Origin: Rhodamnia argentea
Taxonomy: Eukaryota > Streptophyta > Magnoliopsida > Myrtales > Myrtaceae
DNA: 64,000 bases
Assembly (NCBI RefSeq): GCF_020921035.1
Contig: NC_063158.1
Span: 25,654,178-25,718,177 of the forward strand
Direction of reading: 5' to 3'
Positions 7,558 to 43,784 of this stretch are shown piece by piece; the first letter of the stretch is position 1, and each line of letters begins with the position of its first letter. The notes beneath the pieces were generated by a model that saw only the letters and a program-made list of their open reading frames with translations, searched no databases and was not told the DNA's origin. Position numbers and translations under genes: made by a program.

Positions 7558-7560
7558 TCT

Positions 7561-8292
7561 CGAAAAAAGTGTTGGAAGTGCGGAAAAGCTGGACACTTGA
7601 AGAAGGATTGCAGAAGCAAAAGTGTGGGTCCGGAGAAGCGAGATGAGGTGACATCGTCTAGTTTAAAGAAGGATGATGACACTAGTGCGGGAGATATGTA
7701 TCTCGTTTGCAGCTCATCTCAAATTGACTGCGATGCATGGATAATTGATACTAGAGCGTCTTTCCACATAACGCCTCATAGAGATTGGTTACGCTATTAT
7801 GAGCCATATCATGGAGGTATAATGCGTATGGGAGATAATACGACGCTTTATATTATCGATCGCAGAAAGGTGAAACTAAAGATGAAAGATGGGACAGCCA
7901 AGAATCTTCCATATATGATGCATATTCCTAGTCTTACCGGGAATCTTATTTCTGTGAGAATGATGGCAGATGCTAGTATTACTTTCGCCAGCGATAAGTA
8001 TTCATGCAAGCTAACCTATAGTTCTATGGTAATCACCAAAGGGGAACGGGAAGGAAAACTATGGAAATTACTGAGAATCACGGTGATTAGTGGTCAGAGT
8101 TATATCACGGAACAGGTGCAAGAAGATTCTTTGATGTTGTGGCATCGGAGATTGGGTCATATCGGTGAGAAAGGGCTGGTGACTCTTACTTCAAAGAAGA
8201 TGGTGGATGGAAACCCAAGCTGTTCTATGAGTTTTGGATTTTGTGAACATGTCTACATGGGAAACAAAATTGGGTATCTTTTGAATTCGTAG
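7561..8292 (+). pseudogene. Copia zinc knuckle, protease and pre-integrase region
   Basis: This frame carries CWKCGKAGHLKKDC, a complete CCHC zinc knuckle for RNA packaging (about 7570-7611). Next comes the aspartic protease motif WIIDTRASFHIT: the catalytic Asp-Thr is kept, but the Gly is Arg (AGA at 7753-7755), which is expected to be inactivating. MLWHRRLGHIGEKGL (near 8137) is the GAG-pre-integrase zinc-binding motif. The frame stops at 8290-8292, just before the integrase core. Confidence 0.88.
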
Positions 8293-8295
8293 GAG

Positions 8296-8890
8296 GAAGA
8301 GCGAAAGGGATTTTGGATTTAATCCACAGTGACATCTTCGATTCTACACCTGTAGCATCGTTTGGAAAATCAAGGTGTTATGTTTCTTTTTTCGACGACT
8401 TTTCCAAGCATGTATGGATATATTTCTTGTACAGAAAAGATGATGTATTTGAAAAATTTCTGAGTTTAAAGATTTGGTGGAGTTTGATAGAACAATCAAA
8501 GTTTTGCGGATCGACAATGGAGGAGAGTTCCGTTCAACGAAATTTGATTAATTCTGTGCAACTAGTGGTATTGCAAGGTGGAAAACAACGCCCTATTCAC
8601 CTCAGCAAAATGGTGTAGCGGAAAGGCTTAATCGGTCTCTAAATAATAGCTCTCCTACATCAGCCTTGAAGGATAAGACACCTTTTGAGGCACTGTCCGG
8701 AAAGAAGCCATACATATCCCATGTTAGAGTGTTTGACTGCGAAGCGTATGTGCATCTGCCAAAGAAAAAGAGAAATAAGCTTGAAAAGTCGGAGAAGTGC
8801 ATCGTCATTGGGTACAAGATGTGGAATTCTGATATTAAATGTATTATTTATAGCGGGGATGTCGTGTTCATAGAATCTACGATAAATTAG
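8296..8890 (+). pseudogene. Copia integrase core fragment
   Basis: Frames at 8313-8618 and 8666-8890 read LIHSDIFDSTPVASFGKSR, YVSFFDDFSKHVWIYFL, then TPFEALSGKKPYISHVRVFD and LPKKKRNKLEKSEKCIVIGY. These are the integrase catalytic core and the conserved segment after it. The middle of the core, including the third acidic residue, is interrupted by frameshifts and a deletion around 8460-8660. Confidence 0.85.
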
Positions 8891-8920
8891 ATTGTTTCAC
8901 GGGCTCTTGAAGAACCACAT

Positions 8921-10166
8921 ATGGTTGAGTTAGATGTTGGTTTGCGGGGAGAGACAGAGGCTACACAGGCTGAAATAGAAAATTCAGATTTCGAAGGCGA
9001 TGAGCCTAATATGGAGAATGATATAGTAGATTCTGATGCTGAGTTTGAAGTCAAAGTACCACCTAAAGCGGCCTTAAGGAGGTCCATACAACAACGAAGA
9101 CCACCCGAGAGGTATATCTTATGTGTCAGTAATGAAAATTGTGCTCTGATTGTTATTGGTGATGATCCAAATACTGTTAAGGAAGCAAGAAGCGTGAAAG
9201 ATGTCAAGCAGTGGGAGAAAGTCATGAAAGATGAGATGGAGTCATTAGATAAAAACAGAACATGGAATTTGGTAAAATTACCTGCAAATTAGAAGGCAAT
9301 TTGTCATAAGTGGGTATTCAAGAAGAAGATATCTGCAAATGGAGATATAAAATGATACAAAGCTCGTTTGGTTGCAAAGGGGTACTTGTAGATAGTGGGA
9401 GTCAATTATGGTGAGATTTTTTTTCCTGTTGATAAATTAAATTTCATAAGACTTGTTTTTATCTATAGTAGCTGCATATAATCTAGAGGTAAAGTAGCTC
9501 GATCCAAAAATAGATTTCCTATATGGTGAGTTGGAGGAGGAAATTTACATGAAACAACCCGATGGGTTTATGGTCAAAGGAAAAGAAGATTTTGTTTGCA
9601 AACCGAGCAAGTCTTTGTATGGCCTAAAACAATCTCCAAGAATATGGTACCGGAAGTTTGACTCATATGCCTTGAAGCTTGACTTTGTTATTTGTGATGC
9701 TGATCATTGCGTTTACGTGAAGAGGTTAGATGATCATTTTGTTATTTTAGCTTTATATGTTGATAATATGCTAGTTGTTGGGAGTAGTATGAGAATGATT
9801 AGCACTGTAAAAGGACTGTTAGCGAAACAATTTGAGACGAAAGATCGAGGCTTAACAAACTTCATCTTGGGCATGTAAATAAAAAGGGAGCGTGAGAATG
9901 GGAAGTTGTGGCTCGGTCGGAAGATCTATATTGAAAGTGTGTTGAAGAAGTTCAATATGATAGATCGTAAACCAGTAAATATCCCCATGCCCACGAGCTC
10001 TAAGTTATCAGCCCTCCAATGTCCCAAGATTGAAGAGGAAGCTGAAAAGATGGCAGCAGTTTCATATGCAAGTGCAAGAGGGAGCTTAATGAATGCCATG
10101 GTGTGTACTTGTCCGGATATTGCTCATGCAGTGGGAGTTTTGAGTAGATATGTCCAATTCGAGTAA
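8921..10166 (+). pseudogene. Copia reverse transcriptase fragments
   Basis: Three frames (8921-9292, 9531-9878, 9906-10166) carry DVKQWEKVMKDEMESLDKNR, TWNLVKLP, then YMKQPDGFMVKGKEDFVCK and SLYGLKQSPRIWYRKFDS. The polymerase motif reads YVDN instead of YVDD (9756-9767), so the second catalytic Asp is lost. ISTVKGLLAKQFETKDRG, VNIPMPTSS and YASARGSLMNAMVCTCPDIA follow. Stops and frameshifts between the pieces make it non-functional. Confidence 0.9.
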
Positions 10167-10289
10167 AGAGCATTAGATAGCTATAAAGAGGGTATTTCGA
10201 TATCTTCGCGATATGTCTAACTTTGAGTTATGTAATGAAAGCATGAAAAGCTTAAAGGGACAGTAAGCGTTAGAACTGAAGTGTTTTGT

Positions 10290-10750
10290 TGATGTTGATT
10301 GGGGAGGTAACATTGATAGCAAGAGGTCGACTAGTGGTTATGTTATTTCTTTATTTGGCCGAGCTGTAAGTTGGATGAGCAAGAGACAGAGCACGGTTGC
10401 TTTATCTACTACTGAGGTAGAATACATGACTCTTACTCATACTGCTAAAGAAGTGATCCGGATACATAGATTGTGTATTGCACAAGGAGAAGTCAAGATT
10501 GGGTGTGATAGCCAGAGTGTCATATTCTTGGCTAAGAATCCTCCTTTTCATGCAAGAACAAAGCACATTGATATACAATATCACTTCATCCAAGAGAAAG
10601 TAGAACATAAAGTTGTAGTACTAGGAAAAGTTGACACACGGGTGAATAGTATAGATTTTTTTACCAAGGCGGTGACTACGGAAAAGTATGAATGTTGTAC
10701 AACCGAGTTGAGTCTAAAGAAGCATAGGAAGTATTCACCAAGTGGGAGAG
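10290..10750 (+). pseudogene. Copia RNase H fragment and polypurine tract
   Basis: The frame reads WGGNIDSKRSTSGYVISLFG, SWMSKRQSTVALSTTEVEYM, then VKIGCDSQSVIFLAKNPPFH and RTKHIDIQYHFIQEKVEH, all typical of the C-terminal RNase H of Copia elements. The polypurine tract AAGTGGGAGAG abuts the 3' LTR at 10751. This is the best-preserved domain of the element. Confidence 0.88.
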
Positions 10751-11106
10751 TGTTGGGATATAGTTCATACTCTCCTATAACAGGAAAGCACGTGAGTTTC
10801 GCTCCGACGGGGGTCTCAAGGGGGCAGCACCTTCTGAACACGAGAGGGCTTTTACGATTTAAACCAGTAATTTTTTATTAGTAGTTTAGGCTTAGGGTTA
10901 TGAACAGCTACTACTATATATACTCTTTTTAGCTTGTAATTGCATGATGTACAAGAGCTGCGAGGTGCTAATTATAGTGGAATCATCTGCTGGACGTAAT
11001 CTTAATTTAGGGGTGAATCAAGATAAAATATCATGTTTCAATTTTCTCGTCCTTGCTCGTTTTGCTTCTATACGATTGTGAATGCGATTGTGAGCTGATC
11101 CTTACA
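10751..11106 (+). repeat. 3' LTR of the Copia element
   Basis: 356 bp from TGTTGGGATA to CCTTACA. It shares its ends and the TATATATAC box with the 5' LTR (5962-6209) but retains about 108 bp of middle sequence that the 5' copy has lost. It is followed by ATACG, the partner of ATAAG before the 5' LTR. Confidence 0.88.
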
Positions 11107-21699: not shown

Positions 21700-22011
21700 T
21701 CTTCGACCGACAAAAAAAGAGAAGAAAACACTCTATCCTGTCGGCCATTTGTTTGGCCGCATCTTCGATTTTTATTTTTTCGATCGACCAATAGCATTTG
21801 ATTTTATGGTCTTCCTCATAAAATTAGAACTCTCTGTTTCGACCACCGTTTTCTCATCGACCCAGAGCATTTCATTCTTTTTCCTATCAATTCCTCATTA
21901 CCCGTGAACGTGGCCTCTTTCTCTGTTACGAACATGGGAAATGTCTTCAGATCTACATGTCTGAGAGCGAGAGAGAGCGAGACGGAGACAGGAGGTGAGC
22001 AAACTACTGCT
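21700..22011 (+). promoter_or_regulatory. Promoter and 5' leader of TNL copy 1
   Basis: This stretch is homologous to the region before TNL copy 2 (36410-36776) and to an orphan copy at 35690-36210. The shared core is CCAATAGCATTTGATTT-ATGGTC, preceded by a GGCCA-TTTGTTT-GCC block. It is followed by a GA-rich leader (GAGAGCGAGAGAGAGC, about 21964-21979) and the GAGCAAACTA-TGC just before the start codon that is also found at copy 2. The transcription start is not determined. Confidence 0.55.
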
Positions 22012-22509
22012 ATGGCAAGCTCAGATGCAGGAACTTCATCAGGAAGCAAGTATCAAGTGTTTTTGAACTTCAGAGGACCCGACACTCGCAAGGGATTCAT
22101 CAGCTTCCTCTACAATAGCTTGGATGTTGCTGGAATCCGTGTCTTTCTAGACGATGAAGAGCTCTCTTTCGGTGCAAGGATTGATGGATCGCTAGAGCGA
22201 GCGATCAACGACTCAAGGATCTACATACCCGTCTTCTCTAAGAACTATGCCTCCAGCCAATGGTGCCTCCGCGAGCTTGAGCAGATCGTGTCTAACACCT
22301 TTAATTCGGAAGGTAACAAAGAGATCCTTCCTATTTTCTACGATGTGATACCTGACGATGTTAAGCTGAAAACTCAGCGGTATTGCAAAGCCATACGAAT
22401 ATTAAAGGACGAGAAGAGATTGAGCGATGAGCAAGTAAATGCGTGGAGAAAGGCTCTCAGGGAGGTTGATGCGATAAAGGGATGGGAAATGAAACAGTAC
22501 AAAAGGTAA
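22012..22509 (+). CDS. TIR domain exon of TNL copy 1 (possible TIR-only protein)
   Basis: The start at MASSDAG is chosen because copy 2 begins the same way and both are preceded by GAGCAAACTA-TGC. The TIR signature YQVFLNFRGPDTRKGF lies at residues 14-29, and the NADase catalytic Glu (family knowledge) is Glu88 in SSQWCLREL. All key TIR segments are intact. The exon ends at 22505 with phase 2 (AAA AG|GTAAGC). If intron 1 is not removed, translation continues AGG TAA and stops, giving a 165-residue TIR-only protein. Because the acceptor of this intron is mutated, that short product is the simplest expected protein. Confidence 0.7.
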   Translation: MASSDAGTSSGSKYQVFLNFRGPDTRKGFISFLYNSLDVAGIRVFLDDEELSFGARIDGSLERAINDSRIYIPVFSKNYASSQWCLRELEQIVSNTFNSEGNKEILPIFYDVIPDDVKLKTQRYCKAIRILKDEKRLSDEQVNAWRKALREVDAIKGWEMKQYKR

Positions 22510-23188
22510 GCTTGCTGCTTTCAAGATGCTTGATTCCCCAATTTTCCTTGATACTTATTGATAGAGGTAAAAAAGAAATCAGTAAGATTGAGGTGGGACT
22601 TCAATTATAGTAATGCAAACTGATGAACCTATGCTACGTTCGTCAGAAAATTGTGAAACTGCTTAACCAGTTCATCTTATGTAATGAGCGCATAATGATA
22701 TTCATAGCTAGGTAGCTACATCAATATTTGTTAGTGGGCACTGGGAGGAAAAACAAGGGGACAATGAAATTCCCTGCTCATTCCTATTTAATCATTTAAT
22801 ATTTCTATACGTTAAACATGTATCCTCTTGTATACACCGCGTTCAGCTTCTATAGTCCTCGCTTGAGCATAAATCATTAAATATGAATTTCAAACGCTTA
22901 AATATTTCTGCATCTATTCTGCGCAAACGTTATTAAGATAATCCCAAGATTGCTAATCTCATGTTGGAATCAAGTCAAATTTCAGGTCATGCCATGGCGC
23001 CCAAGTTGGCAAGTACATATAAAGTATGTTATGGAGGGATTTAATGTCCAACGTGGACTCTTAGAAGAAGATCACTTCTAGATTGATAATCTCCCATGAA
23101 TTATCCAATTATTGTGGAGTTTATCCAGTGCTTGAATAACATCAATTCCAGCTAGTTAATCGTGATTTCACATTTTTTTCCCCGCTAA

Positions 23189-24289
23189 ATGGTTTTCCAT
23201 TGTGGCGGTGAAGGCGAGCTGATCAAGTCGGTAGTTGAGGAGGTCATGAAAAAGTTGAAGACAAAACATAGATTGGTGTCTGAACATTTAGTTAGAACTG
23301 AAGATCGAATATTAGAAGTGAAAGAATTGTTAGAGATCGACTCCGGTGATGTGCGGTTCATTCGAGTTCATGGCATGGGAGGTATCGGTAAAACGACTCT
23401 CACCAAAGTCGTCTTTAACGAAGTCTTTTCTCATTTTGGAAAGTGTTGTTGTTTTCTTAAAGATGTTCGAGAAAAATCATCAAGAATTGATGGCTTACTT
23501 CAGTTGCAAAAACAGTTATTATCTGAAATCGGCGCTCATGCAGGAATAGGGAGCATTAATGATATTGATGATGGAATGAATAGGATTGGAGAAGCACTTT
23601 GCAACAAGAAAGTTCTCATTGTACTTGATGATGTTGATAACAGCCAACAAGTGAAGAAATTAGTTGGACAGGGCACTTTGTATTCGGGATCTAGAATATT
23701 GATTACAACTAGAAACAAAGATGATTTGCGAATAGAATATCCAGTTTTCGAGTATGAAATGAAGGTGATGAGTGATGATCATGCACTTAAGCTTTTCAGT
23801 AGGCATGCATTTAACGAAGACTCTCCTTCAAATGACTACAGTGATCTTTCAAGGGAAATCGTATCTGCGATTGGAAGACTTCCATTGGCTCTCCAAGTAA
23901 TTGGTTCGTTACTCTACCGCAAAAAACAAAAATTTTGGAAAGAGAGATTGAAGATGTTAAAAAAAGCACCTCATGATGAGGTTTTTAGAAAGTTGAAGAT
24001 CAGCTATGATGACTTGACTTTGGAGCAAAAACAAATTTTTCTCGATATTGCATGTTTTTTTGTTGGTGAGGATAAGATGAGTGCATTTTATGTGTGGGAA
24101 GATTGTAAGTTTTGTCCATATACCCAAGTTCATGTCCTCATTAGCATGTCTTTGGTAAAGATTGTGGAGAACAATAAGTTTTGGATGCACGATCAACTCG
24201 GAGATCTTGGAAGGCAAATTGTTCAAGAAGAAAAGCAAAATAGGATATGGAATTGCGAGGACATCTTTGATGCAATGGGATCGGAGGAG
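23189..24289 (+). CDS. NB-ARC exon of TNL copy 1
   Basis: The exon would normally begin at 23209, in frame with GEGELIKSVVEEVMKKL. It shows P-loop GMGGIGKTT, kinase-2 KKVLIVLDDVDN, RNBS-B GSRILITTRNKD, GRLPLALQVIGS (GLPL), FLDIACFF and MHDQLGDLG (the MHD switch), so the nucleotide-binding and ADP/ATP switch parts are complete. An ATG at 23189, directly after an in-frame TAA, opens the same frame and could start a TIR-less product. The exon ends at GAG|GTAAAA (24289). The P-loop to MHD order and spacing match copy 2 closely. Confidence 0.72.
23206..23208 (+). other. Mutated splice acceptor of TNL copy 1 intron 1
   Basis: Aligned to copy 2 (TTGTGGCAG|CCACGGCGAA, acceptor at 37801-37803), copy 1 reads TTGTGGCGG|TGAAGGCGAG. 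The invariant A of the AG acceptor is G. The surrounding bases align without gaps, so this is a point change and not a mis-alignment. Confidence 0.85.
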
Positions 24290-24445
24290 GTAAAACAATT
24301 CTACAGACAACTAATAATTTCTCTAGGAGAAAATCCTCTACGTTCCATGAGCATGCTCGTTTTTTTCCCCCCTTCTATTCCCATTTCAATCGGTTTCCTC
24401 TCAATTAAAATATTGAATACCACTCATTTATGCTCTCCTCTGCAG

Positions 24446-26190
24446 CCGAATAAGAGCGTAATAGCAGTGGATCTTGATCTACGCAGAAGTGATTCAGAGA
24501 TCGTTATTAGAAGCGAAGAGATTGGAAGGTTTGAACGTCTGAAGTACCTCAAATTAAATGGGGGAGCTTTGGTGGGTAACTTAGCGAATAGTCTTACCAA
24601 TTTAAGCTGGATTTTTTGGAGCCATCCTCTTCCAACGTCTAACCCAACCAATATGCACTTGAAGAATGTGGTCGTTCTTCAATTTTTAGACAATGACTTC
24701 ATAGATGATTCAAATCTACAGAGCTTCGTCAAGGTGCGTAATGTGCTTATTTTTGTTCTTTGAACGTAATATTTCATTGTTCATCTATTGAATATCGCAT
24801 TCATTTTGACAGATGGCAAGAAAATTGAAAGTTATTTCTCTTAAAGATTGTGATAAAATAACCAGAACGCCAAATTTCTCTGAATGCCCGAATTTAGAGA
24901 GTCTTAATGTCGACCATTGTTCCAATTTGAGGGAAATTGATGGCTCTATTGGGCAGCTGAAGTGTCTAACTTACATGAAGATTGCTTATTGCCCTCGTCT
25001 TAAAAATTTGCCCGAGGAAATTGGGGACCTAGAGAAATTGGAGCACTTCACTGTGCAGCAGTGTGATGGAGTGAAGAGACTCCCAGAATCCATATGGAAG
25101 TTGAAATCATTACGTGAGGTACACTTTTCAACTGGCTGGGATGTTTATTCAGCAAATTCATGAAGTTACCTAGTACTATTGGAAAGCTTCATAAGCTGGA
25201 AACGCTTCATGTCAATGCTTATTATTCAAGAGGTCAACTTGTTTATGGAATCGGAAGTTTGCCCTTTCTGAAAAATCTAACTCTTCCACTTGAAATTTCA
25301 AAAACAGTTGGCAAGACTACTGGTGGAATCTAAAATGTTGTCTGTAGTCCGAAATCTCTCGAACCTGACTAATTTGGCTGAGTTAGATCTTGATGATTGT
25401 GGAGGAAAAGGAGGTAAACGTTGTACTGTTGATTTACGGTGGATTCGGAGATTATCCCAAGCTGACTAAATTGAGCTTGAGACTTCACATTGTCAAGCTG
25501 CCCTTCCTCTCGGACCTTTCATCAACTTCCCATGTCTCTGCAAAAGCTAAGCCCTGACGATTTCCATTAATTGAGTCACTCTATCTGCACATGAGAAATT
25601 TGCCGCATCCAGAGCTCTCTAGATCTCCAGTGCATGCATATGAACTCGATGGGCTTCAACTTCCCCATCTAAGGGAGTTTCTTGTGCAAAGCTGTGAAAG
25701 TCTTCACGGAATTTCTTTGGGTGTTCGAATCGCTGGAGGCATCGTCTATGGTACGTTGCCAGTCCTTGAGAAGTCTAGTTTATGTGGGGGAAGCACGGCA
25801 GGATATTAAATGAGTCTGCTAAGGAGTTGATTACTTGTGGGGTGAGACTAATCCTTCATTGACTGCTTCGTATAAGTTGCAAAGTTTCGTGCTGTCATCT
25901 TGCGGCAAATACACGAGATTCAAGTTTTCAGTACGTTGGGATCAGGGGAACAGGTTTGAGATAGTCGCAAACTGCGAAGTCTTCGTGGTTCACCAGACGG
26001 GAAGAACCTCAAGTCTTTTTGTATCAATTCATGCAATTGTCCAAGGACTATCGAGGGCCTCAACGAGTTGGAGTTTATAGATTAACTTACAAGTCTTGGC
26101 CTGTGGACAGTTAGAAAGGTCGACTGATGTATCTTTGGTTCAGGGAAGACTTTCGGGGCTCCCGCTTGTCTTACAAACACCCTAAGGTGA
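24446..26190 (+). pseudogene. LRR-linker and LRR exons of TNL copy 1
   Basis: Exon 3 (24446-24733, 96 codons) opens after TCCTCTGCAG and contains VIAVDLDLRRSDSE and RFERLKYLKLNGG. Exon 4 starts at 24813 after TTTTGACAG and gives ordinary LRRs (LKVISLKDCDKITRTPNFSE, LPESIWKLKSLREV) until a frameshift stop at 25161-25163. Beyond it, further LRR pieces can be matched to copy 2 in shifting frames, such as ELDGLQLPHLREFLVQSCES near 25640-25700. The block ends with a TTACAAACACCCTAAG|GTGAGT sequence at about 26185, a consensus splice donor at the place where copy 2 has AAG|GTGACA. Confidence 0.75.
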
Positions 26191-33717: not shown

Positions 33718-33905
33718 TTCTGCACTGTATTTGTGGTCTACTGTTATATCGTAGAAGGCATTGGTTTCTTCAATACGGCTTTGGCTCCAACCAATTTGTA
33801 CTTAAAGCATGTGGTGATTCTTCAATTTTCAAACGATGACTTCATAGATCATTCGAAACTCCAGGGCTTAATCAAGATGTGTCATGCTTTTTACAGTCTA
33901 TTTAA
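33718..33905 (+). pseudogene. TNL exon-3 fragment
   Basis: GCTCCAACCAATTTGTACTT, GTGGTGATTCTTCAATTTTC, ACTTCATAGATCATTCGAAA and GGCTTAATCAAGATG correspond to the end of exon 3 of TNL copies 1 and 2 (CCAACCAATATGCACTTGAA ... AGCTTCGTCAAGGTGCG). The donor GTGCG is ATGTG here. A CTGTATTTGTGGTCTMCTG block before it is shared with unit A near 28255. It is a fragment without function as a receptor. Confidence 0.75.
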
Positions 33906-36776: not shown

Positions 36777-39700
36777 ATGGCGAGCTCAGATGCGCCGTCC
36801 GGATGCGAGTATCAAGTGTTCCTCAGCTTCAGAGGACCCGATACTCGCACTGGATTCACCGACGTCCTCTTTCACAGCTTGACTAGTGCTGGAATCCGTG
36901 TTTTTCGGGACGACGAAGAGCTCCGTGTCGGTGAAAGGATCGATGGATCACTTTGGCGAGCGATCGACAACTCCAGAATCTACATACCCATCTTCTCTCG
37001 GACCTACGCTTCGAGCCAATGGTGCCTGCGTGAGCTCACACAGATTGTGGTAAACACCTTTAAATCGGAAGGTACTAAAGAAATCCTACCTATTTTCTTC
37101 GACGTGAATCCAGACGATGTTAAGCTGAAGACTCCATTGTATCGAGATGCCGTACTCAATCTGGAGCACGAGAAGAAGTTGAGCCCTGAGCAAGTAAATG
37201 CGTGGAGAGAAGCTCTCATGGAGGTTGATGCGATCAAGGGATGGGAAGTGAAGAAGTACAAAGGGTAAGCTTGTTTCCCTAACTTTCCTCAATTATAAAT
37301 GTAAAAGTTCCAGTATGATTGAGTGGTCTTTTAGAATAATAACTTCAAATAAATACTTTGATTGTGGGCAGCGGGAGGAAAAAGAGTGGGATAATGAAAC
37401 TGCATGCACGTTCCTCTCTAATCGTTTGATCTTTCCGCTACGTTGAAAATTTCTTCTCTTATCATACAGAATGTTTAACTTTCTTTTTTTTTTTTAACAA
37501 TAATGTTTAACTTCTATAGTCGTTGCTCGAACATAAATAATAAAATGTCAATTTCAAATGCAAATATATGTCTTAACTCTATTTTGCACGAGTGTTATTG
37601 ACATCATCGTGAGATCGCTAATCTCATGACATGGGGAACGCGTTGCCAAAGTACAATAAACAATATGTTAAGGATTGAGGTTAAGGTTCCATTGTCTTTC
37701 CGATTATTGTGTAGTATTTCCGGTTCTTGAATAACATCACTTCTAGCTAGGAAATTGTGACGTCGCTTTTTTCCTTCATTAAATTGGTTTTGCGTTGTGG
37801 CAGCCACGGCGAATTGATCAATTTGGTGGTTGAGGAAGTCGTGAAAAAGCTAAAGACAAAACATAGATCGGTGACGGAACATTTAGTTGGAATTGATGAT
37901 CGAGTAGTGGCAGTGAGCAAATTATTGGATGTCAACTCTGGTGGGGTGCGGCTCGTTCAAATTTATGGGATGGGGGGTATCGGTAAAACGACTCTCGCCA
38001 AGGTCGTTTTCAACCAACTCTCTTCTGATTTTGGAAAGTATTGTTGTTTCCTTGAAGATGTTCGAGCGAAGTCATCAAGAGATGTTGACTTAATTGAGTT
38101 GCAAAAAAAGTTATTATCCGAAATCGGCCATCCCGCTGGAACAAGGAGCATTGATGAAATTAATTATGGGATGAAGAGGATCGAAGAAGTACTTCACAAT
38201 AAGAAGGTCCTCCTAGTACTTGATGATGTTGATAACTACGAACAAGTGGAGAAATTTGTAGGAAAGAGTCCTTTATATTCAGGATCTAGGATATTGATTA
38301 CAACCAGAAATAAAGATGTTTTGCAAATCCATAGACCGAAGGAGTATCAGATGTTAGAATATGAAATGGAGTTGATGAGTAGTGATCATGCTTTTCAGCT
38401 TTTTAGTAAGCATGCATTTGACAGAGACTCTCCTTCAGATGAGTACAAGGAACTATCCAGGGAAATCGTATATGCTACAGGGAGACTTCCATTGGCTCTT
38501 GAAGTAATTGGCTCGCTCCTCTACAACAAGAAAAAGCAAGAACAGTGGAAAAAGACATTGAAGGAGTTAAGAAGAGCACCGCATGATGGTGTTTTCGGAA
38601 AGTTGAGGATCAGCTATGATGCCTTAAGCTTCGAGCAACAACAAATTTTTCTCGATATCGCATGCTTTTTCATTGGCGAGAATAGGGCGAATGCAATTTA
38701 CATGTGGGAAGACTGTGAACTTCTCCAAGACGATGGGGTCGATGTCCTCCATAGCATGTGTTTGATAAAAATTGTAGAGAACAAGTTCTGGATGCACGAT
38801 CAACTCAGAGATTTTGGAAGAGAAATTGTTCGTAAAGAAAATCATATGAATCCTGAAAAGCGTAGTAGGTTATGGATCCACAAGGACATCGTTGACACAA
38901 TAACCACAAAAAAGGTGAAGTGCCTTAGGTGGAAACCAATAGTTTCTCTACCAAAAAGTCATATACGCTGCAATATGATGCTCTTTTTTGTTCCTTCTTT
39001 TTCCCATTTTAATCCTTTCCTCTGAAATTCAATACTGAATGCCTCTCCTTTTGTTCTCTCATTTGCAGAAGAAGAAGAATGTTCAAACACTGGATATTGA
39101 TCTGCGCAGAAGTCGTGTTAAGGACATTAAGAGTGAAGAGATTGGAAGGTTTGAAAATCTAAGGTGCCTCAAATTAAATGGGGGAACCTTTGTTGGTAAC
39201 TTAGCGGTTTGTCTTACCAAATTAAGATGGATTTTTTGGAGTCATCCTCCTCGAATGTCTAACTCAACCAATGTGCACTTCAAGAATGTGGTCGTTCTTC
39301 GAATTTCTTATCATGACTTCATGGATGATTCCAAGCTACAAAGCTTAATCGAGGTGCGTATATGCTTATTTATATCCTATTTTCTTTGAAATAATATTTG
39401 CCCGTTCGTCCATTAAATGTTGCATTCTTTTTGACAGACGGCAATAAAACTGAAGGTTCTTTCCGTTGAAAGTTGTCCCAGAATAACCAAAACACCAAAA
39501 TTCTCTGGATATCTTAACTTGGAGAGGCTTACTTTCACCAACTGTTCCAATCTGAGGAGAATTGACGATTCTATTGGGAAGTTGAAGTGTTTGATTAAAC
39601 TAAAGATTGACATGTGCAATCATCTTGAAGATTTGCCCGAAGAACTAGGAGACCTAGTGAATCTGGAGCACTTTTTCGTAAAGGGTTTAGAGGTAAAGAA

Positions 39701-41087
39701 ACTTCCGGATTCCATATGGAAGTTGAAATCATTACGTAAGTTGCGCTTTTTTGGCATTAAAAATTTTTATTTAACAAGTTTCTGGGAGTTACCTAGTGCT
39801 ATCAGAATGCTTCAGAACCTGGAAGTGCTTATAATCAATACTAGTAATTTAGGAGGTCAACTTCCTTCTGAAATCGGAAGTTTGCCCTCTCTAAAAATCC
39901 TCGACCTATCGTTTACTAGTGTCAGTGGAGTTCCAAAGACCGTTGGCATGCTTCCTCGCCTGCAAAGATTGGAGTTGAGGCTATGTAATGAGATTCAGGA
40001 GTTGCCAGCGCTCCCAACAAGTTTAACCCATCTACTAGCATCATCTATATCGTTGCGGGTGGTCCCGGATCTCTCAAACTTGGCTAATTTGGTTGAGTTG
40101 AATCTAAATGAAGAAGGAGGAAGAGGATGTTGCACCGGTGAGTTACGGGGGTTTGGAAGATTATCCAAACTGACAAAATTGAGCTTAGGACTTTGCAATG
40201 TCCCTGCTACCGAGCTGGCTTCCCTTCATCTGCTAAAGGAACTTCATTTGTTTGGGCTGGACCAGGAAACCTTTCCGCAACTTCCCTTGTCTCTTCAAAA
40301 GCTAAGCCTTAACAACTTCAATTCAGCTGCGTCAATCTTTCCGAACCTGAGAGATTTGTTATCCTTAGAGCTGTATAATTGTCCTATGCAAGAATTTCAG
40401 CTCGATGGGCTTCAACTTCCACATCTCAGGGATTTCACGGTGCAATGCTGCGGACGCCTCAAGAGATTCAGGCTATCAAACATGACGAAGCTGACATGTT
40501 TTGCGGTGAGGGCTTGTCCAAAGCTGGCAGAGATCCAATTTTCTTGGCCATTCGAGTTACTGGAGCATCTGTGTCTTTCAGGGTGTGAGTCTTTGGAAAG
40601 GCTGGTTTATGTTGGGGAAGCAGCGGATGATGACGACGAGTCTGTTAAGGAGATGATTACTTGTGAAGGGAGACTAGTCCTCGCATCGGAAGCCTTGAGA
40701 AAGTTGCGAGTTTTCGAGCTGGCAGCTTGCCATAAGATTCTCGAGATTCACGTTGTGGGTACGTCGGAATCATGGGAAGTCTTCCACGTTTGGAATCATC
40801 CTCTGCTGCAAGGCATTCGGGGTTTACCAAACTTGAAGAACCTGCGTTCTTTATCAGCTCACTTCTGTGCGGGCCTAGAGGTTGTCGAGGGGCTCGACGA
40901 GCTGGAGTTTTTGAACCTGTTAAGTGTTAGAGGTTGCCAATCTTTGGAAAGGTTGATCGACAAATCAACCACCAGATTGCCAAATGATTGCCACTTAGAT
41001 ATCTCAGGTTGCGAAAAATTACGCGAGGCTAGGAGAGGATTCGAGGGCTCCGTAACGTATTTCAAGCATCATAAGGTGACAGTCTAG
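36777..41087 (+). CDS. TIR-NB-LRR disease resistance protein (complete, L6-like layout)
   Basis: Four exons: 36777-37264, 37804-38914, 39069-39353 and 39438-41087, all GT-AG, phases 2, 0 and 0, giving 1177 residues. Residues 11-163 form a TIR domain (YQVFLSFRGPDTRTGF; catalytic Glu86 in SSQWCLREL), whose NADase activity starts immune signalling in this family. The NB-ARC domain shows P-loop GMGGIGKTT (218-226), kinase-2 LLVLDDVDN (299-307), GSRILITTRNKD (323-334), GRLPLALEVIGS (389-400), FLDIACFF and MHD (493-495), the ADP/ATP switch. The rest is leucine-rich repeats (LEDLPEELGDL, LPSEIGSLPSLKILDL and later ones) that would sense a pathogen effector. The start is the first ATG of the TIR exon and is shared with copy 1. 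No lesion is seen; it looks functional. Confidence 0.93.
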
Positions 41088-41815: not shown

Positions 41816-43215
41816 CAACCAATATGTCACTTAAATGAATGTGGACTTTCTTCAATTGTCCAACAATGGCTTCATAGAGGATTGGAAACTACAGAGCTTA
41901 ATCAAGGCATCCATGCTTTTTTCTCTTCTACTTAACTAGTATGAGATGGTTCGTTCGACGAATTGTGTTGTGGCATTCATTTGTTTAATGATGGAGATGA
42001 AATTGATAGTTCTTTTTCTCGTACGTCGCAGCCTGCGACTTCTTTGGATGCTCAACTTTAGAGAGGCTTACTTTCCAACATTGTCTCAGCTTAAGGAAAA
42101 TTGACAGCTTTATTGGAAGTTAATGTATCCAATCAATTTGACTGTGAATGTTCGCCCAAAGAAATCGGAGGCCTCGTGAATCTTCAGTGCTTGGCTTTAG
42201 GATGGTGTTGTTGAGTGAAGAAAATACTAGATTCCACATGAAAGTTGAAGTCGTTGGGTAAGTTGCAGTTTTTGACCGAGTACTTCGAATCAAATTCATC
42301 TCCAAACATTGCATGGCAGTTGCCTAGTGCAGCGGAAATGCTTGAAGTCGCGACTCGAAATTTGAAAAGCCAACTTCCATCTAGAATGGGAAGCGTCCCC
42401 TTTCCAAGGATCCTATGCTTGTCGTTCTCGTACCCTTGTGTCAGTGAAGTTCCAAAAATAGTTGGCATGCTTACTTGCCGTAAACACTTGAGATAGAAGA
42501 ACGTGATGAGATTCAAGAACTGCCAACGCTTTCTAGCAAGTTTAAGTAATCGACAATTGTCATCTAAATCGTTTGCAAGACGTCCCAAATCTCTCGAATT
42601 TGACTAATTTGGTTCAGTTGGACCTGTATGATGGCTCTAGTTGGAGATAAGGAAGCAAAATTCACCAGTGACATACGGTGGATTACAAGGTTATCCAGAC
42701 TGATGAGCTTGAAACTTCCCAACGTCCCTGCTCCCACTGAGTTGGTTTCCTTTTCTCAGTTAAAGGAACTTCGTCTGTCTTGTTTGGACCTGCAAACACT
42801 CGCGCAACTTCCGCCATCTCTGCTAATTTAAGCCTTGACAACTTCAATGCAACTGGGTCACTCTCATCCAATCTAGAAAATTTTGTCAAGCATAGGGCTC
42901 TCCCAGTCTCAATTGCAAGGAATTCAACTCAACAGGCTTCGACTTCAAAATTTAACAGAGTTGGTTCTGAAAAGCTGTGAACCTCCTGAGATATTGTTGC
43001 CCACAGCTAGTTGAGACGAGACCCAACTTGCCGAGCTGTGTGAATCATTGGAGGCATTTTCTATCATCTGGTGCGAGTCCTTGGAAAGGTTTAGCTTTCA
43101 CGGGTGAAGTAGAGTCTGCTAATGAGTTGATTATTTGTGAAGGAAGATAAGTTTTCTGTCGAGAGTTTTAAATAAGCTTAAAAAGTTTCAACCTTAGGGG
43201 TTGCCCGAAGATACT
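41816..43215 (+). pseudogene. TNL pseudogene, exon 3 end and LRR exon (copy 3)
   Basis: It begins with an exon-3 tail (CCAACCAATATGTCACTTAAA ... AAACTACAGAGCTTAATCAA). After a gap it contains many LRR segments homologous to exon 4 of copy 2: GAGAGGCTTACTTTCCAACA, GAAAATTGACAGCTTTATTG, GGGAAGCGTCCC, CTTGTGTCAGTGAAGTTCC. Frames change every few dozen codons and stops are frequent, for instance the frames at 42245-42496, 42628-42831 and 42780-42980. TIR and NB-ARC exons are absent. Confidence 0.8.
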
Positions 43216-43784
43216 CCAAATTCAAGTACTAGGTACAGCATTTGACCCAAAAAAAAAAACGTATTTCGTACAGCAGAATCAGGGAAGGGTCTGACTTCTC
43301 GGATTGTTTTCCGGACTTCTACCCTTTCGGCATGCCGAAAATAACTGATCAACGGAAAATACTTTCCGGTCAACGAAATGTTCCTGCATAAAATTAGGAA
43401 AGTGAATTAATAAATTTAAATAGATGAAAATACTTTTCAAAAATGCGCCTATCGAATTATTTGAGTAAATTGAAATCGTCTGTAAATTTATTTTGATAGT
43501 ACCTTTGGCTCAAGTGAAGGTAGGAATACCAGGAAACATATGGCATGCAAAGACATCATATCTCTGATCGTCTCAAGGCAAATTGTTGCTTTAAAAAGGA
43601 AAGCTCCCTCAGGATCTGCCTTGAAACGTCCTTTTCCCACAAGCCATCTGGGCTTTTTGGATTCGAAAAAGACTAGTCCTTATGCTTAAATCGAGCAAAT
43701 TTCTTTCTCAACAATGCCTGTGGCAGTAATCTTTCTGAGAAAGTTGATGATTAGATTGTTCGCTGGAGACTTTTAGAGGAAGGG
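43216..43784. other. Intergenic, no gene seen
   Basis: The stretch has a GGAAAATACTTTCCGGTCAA motif near 43357, similar to the termini of the element at 34246-35045, and an A-run at 43250. Nothing else can be assigned. Confidence 0.4.

Follow-up and report, generated by a model that had tools for sequence, protein, structure and literature searches.

Active truncated TNL proteins and TIR-only proteins have been described, and TNL genes are known to give rise to alternative transcripts that retain introns (PMC4100160, PMC10972746, PMC8069298, PMC7826191). TNL pseudogenes have been reported from birth-and-death NLR clusters of cacao (PMC12405883). Here we describe copy 1, a TNL-derived locus in the window, which is the whole stretch of 64,000 nucleotides that was analysed (contig C9:25654178-25718177). 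Copy 1 is probably a degenerating TNL of a large tandem family, which lost its LRR first and a splice acceptor late, and whose remaining transcripts would encode a TIR peptide and be prone to decay. The parts of copy 1 and of the intact paralogue with which it is compared are located in the window as follows.

22012-22505, plus strand: copy 1 exon 1, encoding the TIR; 164 codons and 2 bases, open, with Glu88 and a Pfam score of 128.6 bits
22506-23208, plus strand: intron 1 of copy 1, with an intact GTAAGC donor and CGG at the acceptor position; the unspliced reading ends at TAA 22507-22509
23206-23208, plus strand: lost splice acceptor of copy 1; CGG, against CAG in all 26 paralogues read
23209-24289, plus strand: copy 1 exon 2, encoding the linker, NB-ARC, winged helix (WHD_ROQ1) and MHD; open
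24446-24733, plus strand: copy 1 exon 3; open frame
24813-25160, plus strand: in-frame part of copy 1 exon 4; 116 codons
25161-26190, plus strand: decayed LRR part of copy 1 exon 4; TGA at 25161-25163, frameshifts, and deletions, including ones of 80, 38 and 71 bases; 26190 is the end of the alignment and not a tested gene end
36777-41087, plus strand: copy 2, an intact TNL of 1177 aa; exons 36777-37264, 37804-38914, 39069-39353 and 39438-41087

A DNA search of the 346.7-Mb genome (74 contigs) with positions 23100-24290 returned at least 41 matches, copy 1 counted, all of them on contig C9 in three clusters at about 15.0-15.3, 21.9-22.2 and 25.6-26.0 Mb. With the TIR exon as query, the same kind of search found 40 matches including copy 1, 38 on C9 and two on contig C4. 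We read 26 of the 39 other copies matched (copy 1 itself and a short additional piece are not counted), namely copy 2, L016, L029-L038 and L039-L052. Among the matches listed, the nearest paralogue is 81% identical to copy 1 over 23100-24290 and 82% identical over the TIR exon. The exon 3 acceptor of copy 2 is one among four tandem AGs. Further TNL relics in the window are LRR pieces at 41816-43240, which contain stops and frameshifts, and at 33787-33886. The frames at 7558-10881, judged from their translations, resemble a broken retrotransposon of the Copia type.

The LRR exon of copy 1 lacks the open frame of a TNL. When it is aligned with copy 2, 13 of its 18 indels shift the frame, and the first stop is reached at 25161-25163. 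Compared with a paralogue that is intact, copy 1 therefore carries disabling lesions, as a TNL pseudogene does. Besides copies 1 and 2, exon 4 was read in L016, L029, L032, L034, L035 and L037, in some of them partly. In an alignment of seven sequences, copy 1 has 16 indels in exon 4, eleven of them frame-shifting, whereas frame-shifting indels are absent from L034, L035 and L037 (L035 and L037 being covered in part), L032 has two, at the extreme end, and L016 has seven. Whatever the order of the lesions, the disruption of the LRR exon from 25161 onwards shows that copy 1 did not start to decay recently. The very young inactivation envisaged in a preliminary description of the locus is at odds with this accumulation of frame-shifting indels.

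The exons upstream of the LRR are open. Exon 1 encodes a TIR and exon 2 an NB-ARC, in the order found in a TNL, with Pfam scores of 128.6 bits for TIR (PF01582), 98.7 for NB-ARC (PF00931) and 46.9 for the winged helix (WHD_ROQ1, PF23282); the corresponding scores of copy 2 are 114, 126.1 and 45. The motifs that we take to be Glu88, RGPDT (residue 21), the P-loop (23372), kinase-2, RNBS-B, GLPL and MHD are all present. The TIR glutamate is the catalytic residue, and the predicted product of exon 1 has the whole TIR with catalytic glutamate of a TIR-only (TX) protein. No frame-shifting indels were seen in exons 1-3 of copy 1, and a single copy-1-specific indel, of 9 bases, is present in exons 1-2 (the fetched copies reach about position 24240). 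About 35 bases past MHD, copy 1 is without 18 bases that are present in copy 2 and L016. Copy-1-specific indels in intron 1 number five, or two by a stricter rule, and a comparison of exons with the intron is little informative. The indel pattern of copy 1 against copy 2 (five of five in frame in exons 1-2, five of 18 in exon 4) was dropped as a test, because three in-frame indels in exons 1-2 are specific to copy 2. The TIR frame of copy 1 also extends upstream without a stop as far as an in-frame ATG at 21934 (21934-22011; MGNVFRSTC...), and L036, which is without the inner ATG, has an MGN start at the corresponding place. This MGN start could possibly carry a lipid-anchor signal. Intron 2 of copy 1 (24290-24445) is 156 bases long, in frame and stop-free, so that exons 2 and 3 form one frame when it is unspliced.

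The junction between the TIR and NB-ARC exons is lost at the site used by the family. The donor at 22506 reads AG|GTAAGC and is intact, and the acceptor is CGG in copy 1 alone among the 27 copies read; copy 2, L016 and L029-L052 have CAG. A GT-AG intron 1 that joins TIR to NB-ARC in frame at the family site is therefore absent. The phase-2 donor creates an in-frame stop (GGG TAA or GGG TGA) in copy 1 (22504-22509) and in 25 of the 26 other copies read, the exception being L038, which has a GC donor. Almost all copies read would thus have a TIR-only frame if intron 1 were retained. In L038 the change of the donor from GT to GC occurs in a copy whose exons are interrupted too.

Three AGs downstream of the lost acceptor are relevant to splicing of copy 1.

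23212-23213, plus strand: first AG past the lost site and the likeliest cryptic acceptor; out of frame, with a predicted product of 172 aa
23270-23271, plus strand: in-frame AG; its use would delete 21 linker residues
23294-23295, plus strand: second in-frame AG; its use would delete 29 linker residues

Acceptor choice by scanning favours the nearest suitable AG. Copy 1 contains no AG between 23155 and 23213, and AG 23213 would therefore be the natural substitute. Joined to the normal donor, it adds eight residues before TGA 23236-23238, giving 172 aa in total. AGs from 23218 to 23242 give one to three residues before a stop, AGs from 23218 to 23260 give 1 to 10, and those at 23151 and 23155 lead directly into TAG and TAA. 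If intron 1 is retained, the product has 165 aa and ends at TAA 22507-22509. Premature stops far upstream of later introns mark transcripts for nonsense-mediated decay. After the TGA of the form spliced at 23213, exon 2 continues for another 1,051 bases and two introns follow; the stop of the intron-retaining form lies further upstream. Both transcripts are therefore predicted substrates of decay, from which little protein is expected. Combinations of alternative donors within exon 1 with out-of-frame AGs can produce open frames but cut into the TIR, and were judged unlikely. Much of what the preliminary description had reported for this region agrees with our reading: the change from CAG to CGG is evident from direct comparison with copy 2 and the 26 CAG paralogues, the openness of the TIR and NB-ARC exons with all their motifs is upheld by the frames, motifs and Pfam matches, and its assessment of AG 23212-23213, of the nearby AGs leading to stops and of the AGs near 23150 is reproduced. 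Its expectation that the TIR-NB-ARC fusion is lost holds for the normal junction; the in-frame AGs 23271 and 23295 had been overlooked.

Selection on the first two exons was evaluated by a two-ratio codon model for 23 copies, run with a script of our own on a topology from IQ-TREE in which several nodes have weak support. The branch lengths from IQ-TREE were scaled by a common factor, and the tested branch alone was given a free length. Copies L030, L031, L033 and L038, in which tblastn indicated interrupted TIR or NB-ARC exons, were left out of this test and of the count of private changes. The dN/dS of the copy 1 branch was 0.97 for the TIR (background 0.29) and 0.94 for the NB-ARC (background 0.45). 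For the exons joined, it was 1.00 with a background of 0.43, and the likelihood-ratio statistic was 20.0 against one ratio and 0.0 against dN/dS = 1. Values from 0.7 to 1.3 were within 3.84 units, and 0.6 and 1.6 were outside. The joined values for eight control branches were 0.90 (L016), 0.75 (L035), 0.56 (L036), 0.38 (L052), 0.35 (L029), 0.35 (L037), 0.29 (L034) and 0.23 (copy 2). Most of the LRR is gone in L029, with its dN/dS of 0.35, and the LRR of L035, with 0.75, is open as far as it is covered; these two copies run counter to a simple tie of LRR loss to high dN/dS, which was not upheld. Pairwise dN/dS between copies 1 and 2 (TIR 0.27, NB-ARC 0.40) had suggested purifying selection on copy 1, but pairwise values average both lineages, and the branch test reversed that reading.

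A model-free count gave 0.071 private changes per site of copy 1 in exon 1, 0.060 in intron 1 and 0.048 in exon 2. The ratios of exon 1 and exon 2 to the intron were 1.18 and 0.81 in copy 1, 0.71 and 1.18 in L016, and 1.01 and 0.83 in L036, whereas they ranged from 0.24 to 0.54 in L034, L029, L037, copy 2 and L035. This test is rough, since it disagrees with the branch test on L036, for which a dN/dS of 1 is 10.2 units worse than the estimate of 0.56. The branch dN/dS and the similar private rates of exons and intron indicate that copy 1 has lost purifying selection, as expected of a TNL pseudogene. The preliminary description had proposed dN/dS of each exon as a check and had named relaxed selection on both as evidence against its reading, which is the outcome obtained.

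A fully neutral history of the copy 1 branch is difficult to reconcile with its open frames. About 210 substitutions in exons 1 and 2 would be expected to produce about seven stops under neutrality, none was seen, and one of 2,000 simulations had none. Together with the lack of frameshifts, this indicates that open frames were preserved along much of the branch, or that diversifying selection acted.

Based on these results, a probable course of decay of copy 1 can be proposed. The LRR would have been lost first. The truncated TIR-NB-ARC gene would then have persisted and been translated, under weak or diversifying selection, and the acceptor of intron 1 would have been lost late, perhaps last. 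The present products would be the 165-aa TIR peptide from transcripts retaining intron 1 or the 172-aa peptide from splicing at AG 23213. A phase as a translated truncated gene and then a late loss of the acceptor would account for both the dN/dS near 1 and the open frames, and a dN/dS at the lower end (about 0.7) with a shorter neutral phase would ease the tension with the stop count further. Alternatively, the dN/dS near 1 could be the mark of a truncated protein that works and is under diversifying selection. That the 5' exons were recently replaced by gene conversion from a living paralogue is not supported, as the nearest copies found are just 81% and 82% identical; conversion from a lost or unsampled copy may have occurred.

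It is improbable that copy 1 is a working TIR-only gene, whose 165- or 172-aa TIR enzyme acts in defence without NB-ARC and LRR. Such proteins can be active, RBA1 being an example (PMC10972746), and the TIR exon of copy 1 is whole, has Glu88, contains neither stop nor frameshift and scores higher than that of copy 2 (128.6 versus 114 bits). Against this, a TIR kept by selection was not found: dN/dS is 0.97 on the TIR branch, with a background of 0.29, although the period since loss of the acceptor alone is not separable in this value. The private changes of the TIR accumulate at about the intron rate, and in both candidate transcripts the stop precedes the exon 2-3 junction by more than 1,000 bases, from which decay is predicted. 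The in-frame stop at the donor is shared across the family (25 of 26 others read) and so is no specialisation of copy 1.

Continued production of a TIR-NB-ARC protein that ends at 25160 and, through use of AG 23271 or 23295, lacks 21 or 29 residues of the linker is likewise unlikely. The frames of exons 1-3 are open, and either AG joined to the normal donor keeps the frame open to 24289, with the missing residues located between the TIR and the P-loop, which is retained at 23372. However, eight AGs intervene between the lost site and 23271, the context upstream of 23271 is purine-rich, and scanning should favour the first AG, at 23213, which is just 5 bases from the old site. The dN/dS near 1 also speaks against a maintained protein.

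We consider it quite unlikely that copy 1, having lost its LRR, kept a TIR-NB-ARC protein under diversifying selection and has now become TIR-only by a shift of the acceptor to the AG five bases downstream. L016 would represent the step before. In L016:1835-5850 (C9, about 25.626-25.630 Mb), about 24 kb before the window, TIR and NB-ARC are open and the 3' LRR is decayed; seven of ten exon 4 indels against copy 2 shift the frame, and none of these seven has both the place and the length of one in copy 1. Copy 1 and L016 are thus two LRR-decayed copies in the same cluster with open TIR and NB-ARC frames and dN/dS near 1, and merit follow-up.

A sequencing or assembly error at 23207 is very unlikely. 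The change is known from one assembly, in which the locus has a single 100% match, itself. However, further substitutions private to copy 1 are present at 23210 and 23212. Three private substitutions within 6 bases are uncommon (seven-base windows with three number 10 of 2,003, at three places), and this clustering makes a lone miscall less likely. Exon 4 is broken even if 23207 was miscalled.

That the locus has split into two genes, one for the TIR and one for an NB-LRR protein that starts at ATG 23189, as suggested in the preliminary description, is highly improbable. This ATG opens a frame to 24763 and is in phase with exon 2. However, 19 of the 26 other copies also have an ATG in that frame just ahead of exon 2, 14 of the 26 at the identical place and with a normal CAG acceptor, which identifies it as part of the old end of the intron and not a new start. 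The LRR is broken, the NB-ARC branch has a dN/dS of 0.94 and neither exon shows purifying selection on the branch of copy 1. Overall, the earlier reading was right about the lost junction and the open exons and wrong or unsupported on young inactivation and a split locus; an LRR-truncated, loosely constrained copy was missing from it.

Open TIR and NB-ARC frames are a poor guide to the state of such a locus, because the 23-copy branch test points to lost constraint while the frames stay open; alone, they do not prove a working or a freshly killed gene. Loss of the LRR first and of a splice site late is a plausible order of decay for a TNL in a tandem cluster. If the TIR peptide is made and active, copy 1 would provide a modest example of how loss of a splice site can create a TIR-only gene; it is the intact domain that speaks for a peptide with a role.

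Copy 1 resembles the TX protein RBA1 (PMC10972746) and the TIR-NBS (TN) protein TN10 (PMC8069298) in having a complete TIR and no working LRR. Those proteins were expressed and tested, whereas copy 1 is known here from DNA, and its TIR shows no purifying selection on its branch. Truncated DM10 alleles of Arabidopsis (PMC7826191) share with copy 1 a stop in the LRR region and the retention of TIR and NB-ARC. In DM10 the sequence past the stop still resembles full-length alleles and the truncation is thought to be recent, whereas in copy 1 this sequence is decayed and the intron 1 junction is lost too. The cacao clusters (PMC12405883) and the cluster of copy 1 are alike in being tandem and of many copies, some of them with stops, frameshifts or deletions beside intact members. 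Copy 1 differs from the cacao cases in that its first two exons are open while its LRR is decayed; the main text of that paper contains neither the word "splice" nor "frameshift" and hence no like case. Most probably, copy 1 is an ordinary product of birth-and-death evolution among TNL genes.
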